DNA from: Cyclostephanos tholiformis
Taxonomy: Eukaryota > Bacillariophyta > Thalassiosirophyceae > Thalassiosirales > Thalassiosiraceae
DNA length: 34,408 nucleotides
Direction of reading: 5' to 3'
Assembly (NCBI GenBank): GCA_036939975.1
Contig: JALLPB010000052.1
Coordinates: 1-34,408 of the forward strand
Shown: positions 5,320 to 22,077 of the stretch, piece after piece
Position numbering within the stretch: position 1 is the first letter of the stretch
How the letters are laid out: every line of letters starts with the position of its first letter
The notes under the pieces: model-generated
What the model was told of the DNA's origin: nothing
Database searches by the model: none
What the model saw: the letters and a program-made list of their open reading frames with translations, nothing else
Position numbers and translations under genes: made by a program

Positions 5320-6399
5320 TTAGGAATAGTTATATCTTTGATATTTACCATCGAGTCTTGTCGTTGAAGGAAGAGGACCATTTGAAGTAGCCAGTCTTGT
5401 AGATGGGTACTCTTCATAGTCGAGGCCCTTGATACCCCCAGAGTCTGGGAGTTTTCCTGTTTCTGAGACATAGATTCCCCGATATGCAATTTTCAGTTCT
5501 GCCAATTTTCGGAGCTCTCTGGCGCGTGCATCACCCATTGTCTCACGTGCATCATCGAAAAGACGCTGTATCTCATCGGCATCAACATATGTAGAAAATC
5601 GATGGAGGAAAACAGTTTCAAATCTTGGATAGGCTACAAAGGAATCATCTTGTAATGCAGGGAAAACGTAACTTCCTCCGTATGTTTCTCTCATGTGCTT
5701 CCAATTGGGGTGCACCACCAGTGGTTTATACGAACCATCTGGCTGGATCTCGTAGGATACGTAGGTATTAGTTTCAAAATCAACACGACTTCGTTTCCCA
5801 CATTGATCCTTGTTCAGAAAGTGACCCGAGAAATGGGAAACATTTCCGAGCTTGCTTTCGAACCAAACAGCAATGAAGGCCTCCATTGCGTAGGTAGCGT
5901 ACTTACATCGGTCCTTACTAATTCCTTCCTTGACTTGAATGAGCTTGAACACATGTGTCGCTGGGAAAAGTGTTAGGAATTCATCAGGATAATTGGCCCT
6001 CATTCGTGTTCCAAAAGTCTGACTTGTTTCTCCCACATAAAACACCACGTAGAACTCCTCCTGGCGTAGACTCTTCAGATTTTCTCGTACTTTCTTGGCG
6101 AAGTCCCACACGGATCTCTCGATACCACTCAATTCATAGAGGTTATCGAGTAGATCTATCCAATCAACCTTCATTAGGCAGATGATCTTGAGGTAGCAAT
6201 TCCCACGTACCTCCTTGTAGGCAGCGTAGACTTCGTTACATTCGCAAAAAATATCTTCAACGAGTTCCTTTGTGACATCATTCCAATCCCTCACACGATC
6301 CAACTTTTCCAGAGTCTTGGGAGGAAAACTGGAAAGGATTCCTATGTAGTCCTTGGCACGGAGATTCTTGTGATTCGTAACATTGTCAAATCCTGGCAT
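5320..6399 (-). CDS. Hypothetical protein, possible GIY-YIG nuclease-like domain
   Basis: This is a 359-residue open frame with a clear ATG (MPGFDN) and a stop after YQRYNYS. Around residues 114-135 it reads FYVVFYVGETSQTFGTRMR, which resembles the second strand and catalytic Arg helix of GIY-YIG nucleases (Y-V/I-G-x-T, then R). A later Glu in YAMEAFIAVWFESKLG could be the metal-binding residue. The first GIY strand is not clear, so the match is tentative. No signal peptide or membrane span is visible. Just upstream of the ATG is an excellent splice acceptor (TTTTGCCCTGCAG, about 6418-6430), in frame with the ATG through codons NIQSRH. The ORF may therefore be the second exon of a gene that starts at 7040. 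Function is not established. Confidence 0.55.
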   Translation of the reverse strand: MPGFDNVTNHKNLRAKDYIGILSSFPPKTLEKLDRVRDWNDVTKELVEDIFCECNEVYAAYKEVRGNCYLKIICLMKVDWIDLLDNLYELSGIERSVWDFAKKVRENLKSLRQEEFYVVFYVGETSQTFGTRMRANYPDEFLTLFPATHVFKLIQVKEGISKDRCKYATYAMEAFIAVWFESKLGNVSHFSGHFLNKDQCGKRSRVDFETNTYVSYEIQPDGSYKPLVVHPNWKHMRETYGGSYVFPALQDDSFVAYPRFETVFLHRFSTYVDADEIQRLFDDARETMGDARARELRKLAELKIAYRGIYVSETGKLPDSGGIKGLDYEEYPSTRLATSNGPLPSTTRLDGKYQRYNYS

Positions 6400-6429
6400 G
6401 TGTCTTGATTGGATATTCTGCAGGGCAAA

Positions 6430-6501
6430 ATTACCAAATGGTAATGCAAGTTACCAAATGAATAACATTACCATTTGGTAATGCTATTACCATTTGGTAA
6501 T
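6430..6501. repeat. Cluster of 16-bp near-palindromes ATTACCA-WW-TGGTAAT
   Basis: Within 72 bases there are three full copies: ATTACCAAATGGTAAT at 6430-6445, and ATTACCATTTGGTAAT at 6467-6482 and 6486-6501. A half copy (GTTACCAAATGA) lies at 6450-6461. The full copies are reverse complements of each other, so the cluster can fold into several alternative hairpins. It sits exactly between the stop at 6507 and the ATG at 6399 of two minus-strand ORFs, possibly inside an intron. Confidence 0.9.
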
Positions 6502-6506
6502 GGGGG

Positions 6507-7040
6507 TTAGAAAATCCATGATTTAGAGTTATCGAAAAGGGTTTTCACATTACTTGCTAGCTCATGTAGAAATGTTAGGTTGTGACCACCGTGCTGAACA
6601 AGGCCGTCAAGCCAACACAACGAAGGATCCAGCTCCGCCCTTCCTGAAGATGGTGGGGAAGGGTCAACTTCTCCCTCCTCCGCCGAGCAGGTGGACAAGG
6701 ACAATGGCGACGGATCAGGCTTACCTCCCTCATTTCCATCATCAACATCCTCGCTTTTCTCGCTTGTGATGGAAAAAAAGGGTGAATACAGGCTGATCTC
6801 GGTTTGATCGTCCCCAGCGCAATTCTTCCCCTTTCGACGAAGGGGCATTTGACGAAACAGGCATAAATCCTCGTAGTCATGAAGGATGCCATACTTCGTC
6901 GCACAAAATTCTGGCGTATAGTATGATGATGCGGGCGAGGACGAGGACATCTTCTTCTCTCTTGTTGGCGATTCGGCAGAGGTGAGCTTTGCCTTTTTAT
7001 TTTTGTTAGACGTATCACTTGCTAACATGTTTGCTGACAT
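6507..7040 (-). CDS. Hypothetical Ser-rich protein or first exon of the downstream gene
   Basis: This is a 177-residue frame from ATG 7040 (MSANML). The N-terminus is Ser/Lys-rich and basic (KNKKAKLTSAES), the middle acidic and Pro/Ser-rich, and the end more ordered (HNLTFLHELASNVKTLFDN). I recognise no domain. It is in tandem with the ORF at 5320-6399. A weak phase-0 donor (AAT|GTGAAA near 6549) could join to the acceptor at 6430, skip the stop and make one protein of about 525 residues with the possible GIY-YIG-like region. That join is inference. The AT-rich 280 bases upstream would be the promoter and also receive the 3' end of the CHD gene. Confidence 0.45.
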   Translation of the reverse strand: MSANMLASDTSNKNKKAKLTSAESPTREKKMSSSSPASSYYTPEFCATKYGILHDYEDLCLFRQMPLRRKGKNCAGDDQTEISLYSPFFSITSEKSEDVDDGNEGGKPDPSPLSLSTCSAEEGEVDPSPPSSGRAELDPSLCWLDGLVQHGGHNLTFLHELASNVKTLFDNSKSWIF

Positions 7041-7319
7041 CTCTATTCTTAGCGCGACGAAATAAAATGGTGGATGTTAGAAACCTACGCAGGAAAAAAG
7101 GGTTGGGTGTGGATACCGCGTTACTCAACTGAAAAAGCAGATATCACCCATCGATTTATGACGAGGCAAAGAAAAGCAACAATCAACCTTTAAAATCAAG
7201 AGGTGAGTTTAAAATTTGGTTTTTAAATTACACGTCGAACACAACGTGGCCATCCGCAGCACGCGTTCGGCGGAGGAATACCAATGCCACTGCCCAAATC
7301 ATAGAGCTTCCAGTGATAT

Positions 7320-18059: not shown

Positions 18060-18144
18060 GATATTTTTTTCGGAAATATGCTCTGGCAGCTGTTGGTGCG
18101 ACCCATGATGTCAGTTTTTTTGTATTTTTATATTACTACCCCTC

Positions 18145-18159
18145 TTAAAACAATTGAAA
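18145..18159. repeat. Left terminal motif of transposon
   Basis: TTAAAACAATTGAAA matches, in inverted orientation and with one base of length difference, the right-end motif at 21984-21999. It is a candidate part of the terminal inverted repeat. Confidence 0.6.
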
Positions 18160-18174
18160 CACTAGCTACTTAGC

Positions 18175-18244
18175 GGTTAGCTAAGGGTTAGATAAGGTTA
18201 GATAAGGCTAGATAAGGTTAGATAAGGGTTAGATAAGGGTTAGG
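18175..18244. repeat. Left subterminal array of G(G)TTAGATAAG units
   Basis: Six to seven tandem units of 10-11 bases: GGTTAGCTAAG, GGTTAGATAAG, GTTAGATAAG, GCTAGATAAG, GTTAGATAAG, GGTTAGATAAG, then GGTTAGG. The orientation is opposite to the right array. Arrays like this at transposon ends are usually transposase-binding sites; that role is inferred here. Confidence 0.85.
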
Positions 18245-18344
18245 AACTCTCTAGTGTAGAAAGCCTCGTAGACATGTACCAGTTCCATTTTTTGGCGGAG
18301 GAGGAGGAGAAGAGAGGAGAGAGAGGGAGTAAATCACAAAAACC

Positions 18345-20424
18345 ATGGACGAATCTGGTCCTCCTTCTTCCGCTCGTCGTTCTGGCTCTCGCCATGGGCG
18401 GCAGCCTCCCCCCCCACTCCCCCCTCAAAATTCCACACACAACCTAACGTCCTGTGCCGCCGGAGCTGCTGTTGGTGCCCGTCGCACCACGGGGGGGAAG
18501 ACCGTAAGCCTGCCCCCATCCACCACAGCTCGGGCTCGACGATCATCCGCCCTTGCCGCCAACCAAGCTCCTCCCACCACCGAGGTCACCCCCATCCCTG
18601 CTCCTCAGCGAAAATCCACACCCAATCCAATCCCCAGTGGAAATTGCGCCGCTATCCGCGCATCCATCGACACAGCGGCACTCGAGAATTCCGACGATGA
18701 CGATGTCATCGACGACGAGGGATATGACTACTTCAGCGACATGCCGAACCCTGACCCCGAAGACCGATCGCCACGAGACATCAGCAGCGAATTCATCTCG
18801 CTCTTCTGTACGTCCCGAAAATGCCAAGAGACCTACCCCAAGGCAAGGAAACTCAAGATTTTCTACGAGGCTCTCACCGTCGACAGGCGGTCAATTCTTG
18901 GCAACTCCCCTCCCCGCGAAGTGCGAGACAAGTTCGTCGCCTGGGCTCAAGCCGTCAAGCAGCGGTCTAAGTGGTCCCTTGACGGGATCGCTCAGTCCGT
19001 CTTCATCATCGCCCGGCACGTACACGACCACCAAGAGAAGATCCGCAAGAACGGGGGATGCGCGACGAACGATTCGAAGATCGTCGTGCTCGTACTCATG
19101 TACAGCTTCTTTTTAACCGAGATCAATCTTGCTGAAGCCGTCCGTCAATCGCAGAACCAGGCTGCCTTGAGCAATCTTCAGCAGGCGAAGCCAAAAGCGA
19201 TGAAACCGCTCCCGACCAACTTCGGGTATGATGCGAATAGGGTAAGTTTTTTGTTGTCGTGATTATTTTTTTGGCAAAAACACTCACACATCATCGTTTA
19301 CTGCCTCGTTATCGCTTAGGTCGCCAACTTCGACTGTCCCTCATGCGAATGCAAGGGTACGGTCATCGCTCTGATCAACGTCGATGACCTTCGTAGGGAC
19401 AAGGAGGCCTTCATCACCGAGTTTGATCGCAGGATGAAGGATTTCGAGAGCGGGTCCGCCAAGAAGCCTCGGCGCACCAAGTTTCCGCAGCAGCAGTACG
19501 CGTGCTGCTGCCCCACAATGCGGACCTATCGTGGGGACATCCTCTCGTCCACATGCAAGGATTGCATCAAGAACGGCGCGGCCATCCCCGACTGCCGGTC
19601 GTGCAAGTGTCAATGCCAGACCGGCATTTTTTACGAGAAGGATATTATCAAGATGGCCACCGACAAGCTCCGACAAGATGAGCTAAAGGCCCGCGAGCAT
19701 GTCCCCAACAAGGATGAGCGTGCCTTCAAGAACTTCTCCGAGATTCTGTCAAGCTCGGTTCGGGACGGCATCAAATGCCTGACGAAATCAAACTCAAGTC
19801 TTGACGAGAGAAATGTTCTCTCGGCAGCTGCTGCTCTCATGTCAAGGAAGCAGATGCCAAGCGAAGACGAGCTGCACTCTCTCCAGAAGAGTCAGCCTCT
19901 CACAACGAGACTGCAAGGCTCTGGTGCTGATGTTCGAAATGCCCTAGAAGCCGATCCAAGGAGGAAGGGGAAGCGTCACTATCGAAACGGTCTTGGGTAA
20001 GTATTTTTGTAATTATTTTAACATCACGACGTCTTTACTAACTATTCACTTTTGTTCTTTATTCTTTAAAAGTGTCGTTATCGATATTTCCAGTGATAAC
20101 GATGACGATAGCTACAACAACGAAGATTGCAAGTTGCCCGCAAGAAAGCCGTCACCCAAGAGGAGGGTTGCGGCCAAGGCGGCCGATTCCGGCGAAGACT
20201 TCAATGCCCGCACTGTGCACCAAGTTTCGGTGCACATGATCGATGGCTCGCCTGCATCCCAGAAGGCTGCTTTGGGTGTCCTCGAGAATTTGAGCAGCAG
20301 CTCAAACAACGTCTCGAAGACGTTAGTCAAGAGCGCCATCGACCGAGGAAATATCTCCGTTGGAATGTCCCAAGAGATCGCAAAGACTTTGCTTCGGGCG
20401 GAAAAGTTACGTTCTAGTGCATGA
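18345..20424 (+). CDS. Transposon companion gene, Cys-rich protein of unknown family
   Basis: Three exons (18345-19241, 19320-19996, 20073-20424) encode 641 residues. Introns are 78 and 76 nt with donors AATAGG|GTAAGT and CTTGG|GTAAGT, and acceptors GCTTAG and TTAAAAG. The first ~100 residues are Pro/Ser/Arg-rich, followed by an acidic patch (ENSDDDDVIDDEGYDYF). A folded region about 150-290 is charged and helical (KARKLKIFYEALTVD, FVAWAQAVKQRSKW). Exon 2 opens with CPSCEC and continues with CCCP, CKDC and CRSCKCQC, a likely zinc-binding cluster. The rest is helical, with an acidic patch (ISSDNDDD) and basic nuclear-type stretches (KPSPKRRVAAK). ATG 18345 has a good context (AAACCATGG). The gene lies wholly inside the transposon and faces its transposase with a 72-base gap. 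A DNA-binding or transposition-helper role is inference. Confidence 0.8.
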
Positions 20425-20463
20425 GTGCGAAGAATCCTCTTTCATTTTAATTACATAGTTGTT

Positions 20464-20469
20464 AATAAA
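20464..20469 (+). terminator. Candidate poly(A) signal AATAAA
   Basis: AATAAA lies 40 bases after the stop of the companion gene, in the AT-rich gap between the two convergent transposon genes. Confidence 0.45.
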
Positions 20470-20496
20470 TTAGTATTATCATATTACTAAACTATT

Positions 20497-21621
20497 CTAA
20501 TTCCATATATAACCACAATGTAAAAATGTTTCATCCATCGATTTAATATCGTTGTCGATAATTTCTTCGACGATTGTTTTCATCGTCTCGAGATCCTCAA
20601 CCTCGGACCAGCGTTTTATCAAATTTACACAGACTTGATTAATTGCATATTCCACCGGCCCGTCCTGCGGACGGTACGGTGGACGGCAAATGACGCGGTG
20701 CCCGCGCTCCCTCACGGCCTCGTATACCTCCGGCGCACGGTGCGAGTTTAGGTTGTCGTGGATGAGAATCCGGCGATGCTCCGGATTCTCATTCACGTTG
20801 TAAGTGTTGAGCACATGCTCCACGAACACACGATAGGCCTCAGCAGAGGTCCCGGGTTCGGTGGTAACTCGTGCCCAAACGCGAGGATTACTCACCGAGC
20901 CGATATCGCCATCGCGAATATCTGGATCGCCCGTTTCCACTGCCAAGATGATTGTCAATTTAAACGTCCCCCGATCGTAATTCCCCGGCTTTCGAATCAT
21001 CAAACCGCGGGGAGACGAGCCGTACTTTCGATTGGCCGCATTCAGATGCAGGCCAAACTCATCCGCATCGATCAACTTTCGCCGCGGAGTCCCATGAATC
21101 CCAACCGGCCAAGGTCGTGTCCAGTAAAGACGACGACGGTCCAGATTTCTCTGGGTAAACGCTTGGTAGGCGACCGTCGACGTCACCTTCTGGGTGTAGC
21201 CCAGCTTCCTCAGGGCTCTTCCCACGTCCTGCTCTGAAAAAATCCTTGCATCATCGCTATGATTAGCGATGAAAGCAATGCACTCACAATAATTAGCTTG
21301 TGGCCAAATCAGTTTAAACATTACGAGCAACAGGAGGTATTGTCCCGATAGAGCGGACGATGGCTTATTCCCCGTCATCCGCAAGGGCACAATGCCATTG
21401 TTCATCCACCGCCAGACACTAGACTTCATTCCCTCAGGGGCAGGGTTCCCAGCACGATAAGCTTCCACGATCATCTGGCGAAAGGGAATGTCATATCCCC
21501 TCGAGCCGCCAACACTCGGATGTGGTAGAAAACGAGTATCCCTCAATACTCCATCTACCCTCGCAACCCCACTATTCCGACGCCATTTAGCGGCATCATC
21601 TTCCCTCTGGAAGGCATCCAT
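20497..21621 (-). CDS. DDE transposase, IS630/Tc1/mariner type (DD34E)
   Basis: A single intact 374-residue frame starts at ATG 21621 (MDAFQRED). It begins with helix-turn-helix-like DNA-binding segments (about 45-150: GYDIPFRQMIVEAYRAG and later EQDVGRALRKLGY). The DDE catalytic domain follows. The first Asp lies in KLIDADEFGLHL (about 185), the second in ILIHDNLNSHRAP (about 286), and the Glu in YRPQDGPVEYAINQV. Counting gives 34 residues between the second Asp and the Glu, the DD34E spacing of the Tc1 branch. The enzyme would cut the element ends and join them to a TA target. No stop or frameshift breaks it, and all three acidic residues are present. The purine-rich stretch 21622-21840 upstream would hold its promoter, next to the right repeat array. 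Confidence 0.9.
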   Translation of the reverse strand: MDAFQREDDAAKWRRNSGVARVDGVLRDTRFLPHPSVGGSRGYDIPFRQMIVEAYRAGNPAPEGMKSSVWRWMNNGIVPLRMTGNKPSSALSGQYLLLLVMFKLIWPQANYCECIAFIANHSDDARIFSEQDVGRALRKLGYTQKVTSTVAYQAFTQRNLDRRRLYWTRPWPVGIHGTPRRKLIDADEFGLHLNAANRKYGSSPRGLMIRKPGNYDRGTFKLTIILAVETGDPDIRDGDIGSVSNPRVWARVTTEPGTSAEAYRVFVEHVLNTYNVNENPEHRRILIHDNLNSHRAPEVYEAVRERGHRVICRPPYRPQDGPVEYAINQVCVNLIKRWSEVEDLETMKTIVEEIIDNDIKSMDETFLHCGYIWN

Positions 21622-21868
21622 CCGATCGATGACGTGCGATCAGAATGGGAAATCGGACCGCGAGACGATGTGCACGGTTGATAATTATTTCCCGCCCTCG
21701 CCTAGACCGGAGAGCTACGCGGAGGGGGGGGATGGTCGATGGGGTCGGGAGGGTGCGTTAGGTCGAAGGGCGTCGTCTCCGGACGATAGGTGGCGGCGGG
21801 GGAGGGCTTCGGGTTTGATGGCAGCGGTGGTGGCGGAAAAATCCAAGGTAAAAGTAATAGCTAGAACT

Positions 21869-21972
21869 GTTAGCTAGCCCTTATCTAACTGTTAGCTAAC
21901 TGTTAGCTAACCCTTAGCTTACCGTTAGCTAACCCTTAGCTCACCGTTAGATAACCCTTACCTAACCCTTAG
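21869..21972. repeat. Right subterminal array of CTTAKCTAAC units
   Basis: About nine units such as CCCTTATCTAAC, TGTTAGCTAAC and CCCTTAGCTAAC, in the reverse orientation to the left array, with a further isolated copy at 22018-22028 (TAGCTAACCCT). It is more degenerate and longer than the left array. Confidence 0.8.
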
Positions 21973-21983
21973 GTACCGGCCAA

Positions 21984-22062
21984 TTTCAATTGTTATTAAG
22001 ACCGTACGATAGTACCATAGCTAACCCTTGGTTACCACCTCTCTGACATCAATTGTTAATAA
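21984..22062. repeat. Right terminal motifs of transposon
   Basis: Two copies of the CAATTG-centred motif occur: TTTCAATTGTTATTAA (21984-21999) and TCAATTGTTAATAA (22049-22062). Both are inverted relative to the left copy at 18145-18159. The outer copy more likely marks the true end, which would lie at about 22077. Confidence 0.55.
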
Positions 22063-22077
22063 GTTCGGTGTATTGTA

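Follow-up and report, generated by a model that had tools for sequence, protein, structure and literature searches.

In textbooks, Tc1/mariner elements exemplify a transposase that acts by itself: classical members such as Tc1, Mos1 and Sleeping Beauty have a DDE transposase, inverted repeats and a TA target. To our knowledge they are single-gene elements, with tips different from those described below and no companion gene. Within the stretch of 34,408 nucleotides analysed here (the window), a transposase of this general type faces a cysteine-rich gene, which we call the companion. This raises the question of whether the companion is part of the transposon and, if so, what it may do there.

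The host genome gave 17 matches to chlorophyll-binding antenna proteins, one of them closest to LHCI, VCPI and FCPII chains. To judge from these sequences, the host is an alga with chlorophyll a/c-type antennae, probably a diatom in view of the Attheya relative of the transposase described below.

The element and its two genes

An exact left tip and a degenerate right tip delimit an IS630-Tc1-mariner element of about 3.9 kb (table 1). The sequence-only reading of this locus had given a span of 18131..22077. Its right edge lay too far out and took in 22033-22072, a remnant outside the element made up of a second, separate pair of degenerate tips that have one CAATTG in common. The right tip of the window element has two mismatches, as a result of which the right-hand TA has been lost; the ends of two other copies (C170 and C1516) have TA on both sides. 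The inverted repeat arrays that the same reading had described at both sides were recovered as subterminal arrays of 10-11-bp TTAGCTAAGGG-like units, inverted relative to each other.

Table 1. Layout of the two-gene element, in window positions.
Feature	Position	Strand	Basis
Whole element, tips included	18134..22009	.	tip pattern; several other copies align from 18134, to about 22006
Left terminal tip, TACTAC-N11-CAATTGA, exact, TA at its start	18134..18157	+	tip pattern
Left subterminal array, 10-11-bp GGTTAGATAAG units	18175..18243	+	TRF
Companion exon 1 (aa 1-299)	18345..19241	+	joined translation; matches in other copies
Companion exon 2, holds cysteine cluster	19320..19996	+	intron positions match other copies
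Cysteine cluster CxxC..CxC..CxxC..CxxCxCxC	19335..19616	+	pattern match in window, C75, C170, C1393, C900
Companion exon 3, stop codon included	20073..20424	+	joined translation
DD34E transposase, 374 aa, stop codon included	20497..21621	-	intact frame, Pfam, D-to-E spacing
Right subterminal array, 11-bp AACCGTTAGCT units, inverted relative to left array	21865..21972	-	TRF
Degenerate right terminal tip with two mismatches, TCGTAC-N11-CAATTGA	21986..22009	-	family tip pattern; C1516 right end

The two genes are convergent, with their stop codons 72 bp apart. As had been read from the sequence, the transposase is intact and the three companion exons join to exactly 641 residues with no internal stop. 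Both companion introns (19242-19319 and 19997-20072) have GT-AG borders, and their positions agree with those of the introns in other copies, for example C75, C233 and C34.

Transposases of the window and of two distant copies, C170 and C900, matched Pfam DDE_3 above the cut-off. The window has a D-to-E spacing of 34. Among 95 proteins (the window's and its 94 relatives elsewhere, one of which is labelled Attheya sp., a diatom), 52 could be read for this spacing, and 44 of these have 34; counted by hand, it is 38 in C170 and 34 in C900. The window transposase showed weak sequence matches to SETMAR (E 7e-4) and Mos1 (E 0.05). These matches, the DDE transposase and the inverted repeats are what the element has in common with classical Tc1/mariner members. 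By its DDE_3-type transposase and terminal inverted repeats, the window element is placed in the IS630-Tc1-mariner superfamily.

Two-gene copies in three lineages

With pieces counted in, protein searches of the host's own 25-Mb genome gave 75 matches for the companion and 64 for the transposase. In lineage A, that of the window, both genes occur together in 13 further elements (C75, C233, C1336, C1173, C530, C34, C758, two in C494, C287, C588, C1213 and C182) and are convergent in all 13 after merging of loci. Their transposases range from 83% (C75) down to about 50% (C1213) identity to that of the window, and most copies of the element are broken.

A companion accompanies 12 of the 14 non-window lineage-A loci whose transposase covers at least 100 codons (a count that leaves out C619); the remaining two are C390, cut by the contig start, and C280, which has 13 stops and no companion in 632 bp. 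Conversely, a transposase is present at 12 of the 15 non-window loci whose companion covers at least 100 codons, and the companion-only loci (C1267, C349 and C347) are all broken by stops. Three companion loci of this size outside the count (C687, C956 and C1105) had no transposase match in the genome search and carry stops in the pieces of each. The C687 piece is flanked by tips at 6905 and 8501, as would be expected of a deleted copy. Among the 75 companion matches, none was an intact stand-alone gene.

Eleven more distant loci encode transposases 27-44% identical to that of the window, and at nine of them the transposase faces a convergent cysteine-rich ORF: five in lineage B (C170, C401, C1393, C151 and C1149) and four in lineage C (C900, C512, C1225 and C723). 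Companion frames of C900 matched those of the other three lineage C loci (tblastn, E 6e-75 to 7e-4), and the C170 companion is an intronless gene for 587 residues. The other two distant loci, C434 (which has stops) and C1434 (a fragment), showed no companion match in the 1.8 kb downstream of the transposase. As support, the sequence-only reading had asked for several copies in which both genes lie between the same ends, and this is what we found: convergent genes in all 13 further lineage-A loci that have both, the same gene layout in lineages B and C, and tips in common. Against it stand the two distant transposase loci that showed no companion, C434 and C1434, both broken or partial.

With a companion in the window and at 22 further loci, the element is not a classical single-gene Tc1/mariner. 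We could also ask whether the genes are chance neighbours, or two nested elements taken for one. Nested or abutting ends do occur here (at C75, C34 and 22033-22072), but gene order and orientation are the same in 23 loci, the window counted, and two internally deleted copies, C664 and C162, retain only the starts of both genes. We therefore consider such an arrangement hardly conceivable.

Lineages A, B and C have a common tip, with variation: TACTAC, eleven variable bases and CAATTG. C900 carries the same tip as the window family. Genome-wide, TACTAC-N9..11-CAATTGA occurs 141 times (77 + 64), compared with four (3 + 1) for the reversed control pattern, and the spacer is N11 in every tip among the matches listed except C454. 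In some places (C112, C154, C173, C259, C282, C305, C393, C509 and C680), facing tips about 170-290 bp apart form pairs that look like MITEs.

Divergence of transposase and companion

Companion dN/dS relative to the window was 0.14-0.37 in 13 of 14 finite comparisons and 0.86 for the short C792 fragment, with two further comparisons saturated; transposase values were 0.03-0.24 in 12 finite comparisons, with six saturated, and dS was near or beyond saturation for most pairs. For C75, whose companion has a stop and a frameshift, the values were 0.24 for the companion and 0.03 for the transposase. Wherever pN was available for both genes (11 copies), the companion had the higher value. Across 12 lineage-A copies, companion distances correlate with transposase distances (Mantel r 0.55, reached by 3 of 20000 permutations); the two genes diverge together in lineage A. 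Identity between the window and C75 is 96-100% over approximately the first 400 bp and 56-86% beyond, a drop which shows that the elements also recombine.

Linkage of the genes extends to other contigs. In six of 145 related proteins from these, the reading frame continues out of one gene into the other gene's antisense strand, running from companion into antisense transposase (P0100 and P0141) or from transposase into antisense companion (P0072, P0073, P0075 and P0078), which indicates that the two-gene arrangement exists there too. The B companion has at least 50 relatives among public proteins, four of which are 569-609 residues long and alignable over 98-100% of the query; no Pfam domain is annotated among the matches listed.

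These data bear on the idea that the companion merely travels with the element as a passenger, having been acquired from the host in a single capture and having no function in transposition or its control. The broken companion-only loci and the transposase loci without a companion (C434 and C1434) would fit it. Against it, the companion has been kept in three lineages with such distant transposases, its dN/dS is low in all but one finite comparison, it co-diverges with the transposase, open full-length relatives exist in other contigs, and none of the 75 companion matches is an intact stand-alone copy. A passenger thus seems very improbable. Retention in many distantly related copies suggests, rather, that the companion probably helps the element to work.

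Possible roles of the companion

The companions carry cysteines in the order CxxC, CxC, CxxC (or CxxxC) and CxxCxCxC, a pattern defined after inspection of the window, C75, C170, C1393 and C900 sequences, all of which match it, so that it is present in lineages A, B and C. C401 deviates at the first pair (CPVFEC), and C723 is without one cysteine of the pattern. Codon-shuffled window sequence, 6.9 Mb in all, gave no match to the pattern; elsewhere among the examined loci the pattern matched one unrelated poly-cysteine frame. When A and B companions are aligned directly, they are collinear along most of their length. The window companion beat all 200 shuffles against C170 and P0099, and did not against P0096 and P0097; the profile comparison was not significant (hhalign probability 0.4-5.8%). 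By these comparisons, A and B companions are not proven homologues.

No Pfam match was obtained for the companions of the window, C170, C1393 and the C900 fragment, no PDB sequence matched the companion, and Foldseek and VIA-align on predicted models gave no clear fold match. The models were weak, with pLDDT of 46 for window exon 2, a poor model, and 55 for the B companion. In the latter, AlphaFold predicted fairly confident helices at about residues 40-140, 160-180 and 345-410, and most cysteines have low confidence.

The companion might add a second enzymatic activity at the ends, as a nuclease or as an aid to repair or replication, in the way of some Kolobok accessories. Kolobok lineages are likewise DDE transposons that each have their own extra protein (KolobokP; Kol0 with KolX), and nucleases or helicases are reported as accessories of KolobokP, E, H and D (PMC9587614). 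Ten ordered cysteines could, moreover, form a structural zinc core. However, the Pfam scans found no nuclease or helicase family, no fold match was clear, and the residues conserved in at least 90% of sequences in B alignment columns (K, G, C, Y, Q, N, I and W) make up no acidic active site. Kolobok also belongs to another superfamily, its named accessories being KolX and enzymes (PMC9587614). We regard an enzymatic role as unlikely.

We favour, with a probability of about 0.58, an old, presumably cut-and-paste, two-gene IS630-Tc1-mariner lineage whose companion is a nuclear, zinc-binding partner that aids or controls synapsis and excision. The transposase would cut at the TACTAC tips and insert at TA. 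The companion would bind either the transposase or element DNA, in the latter case at the tips or at the subterminal repeats, and would promote or control synapsis and excision; most likely both proteins would act on the same ends, with the companion binding DNA or transposase through a zinc core. Mobilization in trans would extend to short, internally deleted copies and to MITE-like pairs that bear these tips.

Two complete lineage B elements suggest how the genes may be expressed. C170 (11627-15383) has inverted repeats of about 357 bp, 90% identical, and C1393 (1341-5079) has repeats of 279 bp, 85% identical, both starting with TACTAC. The C170 start codons lie inside the repeats, the companion ATG by 10 bp and the transposase ATG by 23 bp. 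Since an inverted repeat thus stands just upstream of each start codon, both genes may be under one shared promoter sequence, and the repeats would drive them in matched doses. C1393 is similar and less exact: a second repeat pair comes to within 16 bp of the transposase ATG, and it is ambiguous where the companion starts.

The same layout fits the main rival reading, that the companion is the element's regulator, which keeps transposition from running too high or opposes silencing by the host at the inverted-repeat promoters. Besides the matched repeats of C170, the 10-11-bp repeat arrays near each end of the window element resemble multiple putative binding sites, and the higher companion pN points the same way. 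On the other side, we found in the companion no domain that would separate DNA binding from catalysis. A purely regulatory role is possible and, in our view, clearly less probable than a partner in synapsis and excision.

Precedents and meaning

Two-gene DNA transposons are known from PIF/Harbinger, in which a second, DNA-binding protein is needed for transposition; its transposase family and second protein differ from those here. The present element has a DDE_3 transposase, and no Myb or other Pfam match was seen in the companions scanned.

The closest precedent is the ciliate Tc1/mariner elements with extra ORFs. Paramecium Anchois, Sardine, Thon and Tennessee combine, as here, an IS630-Tc1 DDE transposase with further ORFs. 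According to PMC5405496 and PMC3464196, an ORF2 of unknown function is present in 13 of 13 elements of one study, and Anchois has two extra ORFs and, at 3.6 kb, about the size of the window element. These elements live in ciliates and several carry a tyrosine recombinase, whereas the present one is from an alga. According to PMC4724952 and PMC7325037, TBE (Oxytricha) and Tec (Euplotes) also are DD34E Tc1/mariner elements with extra ORFs, one of which, in TBE, has a zinc finger. They differ in having three ORFs, with a kinase domain in the TBE 57-kD protein and a site-specific recombinase in Tec. No Pfam match to a protein kinase (TBE) or tyrosine recombinase (Tec, Sardine) was obtained in the four companions scanned. 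No report of this element was found in the literature searched; extra ORFs are not unique to it.

More speculatively, two-component Tc1/mariner machinery may predate the lineage split, perhaps across stramenopiles and alveolates, with a zinc-cluster partner, possibly the counterpart of ciliate ORF2, required for transpososome assembly or control and with long inverted repeats as matched promoters; we think this broader proposal rather unlikely as a whole. A second protein kept across deep divergence would show that some Tc1/mariner members are two-component systems. The lineage would offer a tractable system outside the ciliates with which their unexplained extra ORFs could be compared, and it could explain the MITE-like pairs in this genome.

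Identity and ends of element copies

Pairwise comparison of window 18134-18600 with the lineage-A copy at C75 (L050), which carries both genes, gave 96-100% identity over the initial ~400 bases and 56-86% beyond; we read this unevenness as a putative mosaic element or gene conversion. At C75 and two other loci of this genome (C34, C347), ends of element copies sit inside, or adjoin, those of other copies, which suggests an insertion preference for TA inside related element ends. A short way beyond the window element's right end, two degenerate TACTAC-type tips share one CAATTG palindrome (22033-22072, ~40 bp). This fused pair is perhaps the minimal leftover of a further copy.

Other coding fragments and frames

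Further DDE_3 transposase fragments of this genome lie at C690, C1401, C515 and C17 (L003, L005, L006, L008), and a pattern search of these loci did not find the companion cysteine pattern nearby. A Pfam scan of two neighbouring window frames returned nothing above cut-off.

Facing tip pairs

Searching the genome for the tip pattern revealed element-type tips in facing pairs, spaced ~170-290 bp and scattered genome-wide.

Open frames and example facing tip pairs
Feature	Location	Strand	Remark
Open frame, 376 aa	window 5320-6450	-	neighbours 189-aa frame
Open frame, 189 aa	window 6507-7076	-	neighbours 376-aa frame
Facing tip pair	C112:10595-10764		
Facing tip pair	C282:10127-10417		
Facing tip pair	C509:14750-15020		
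Facing tip pair	C680:4367-4650		

These pairs resemble MITE families, candidates for mobilisation by the element.
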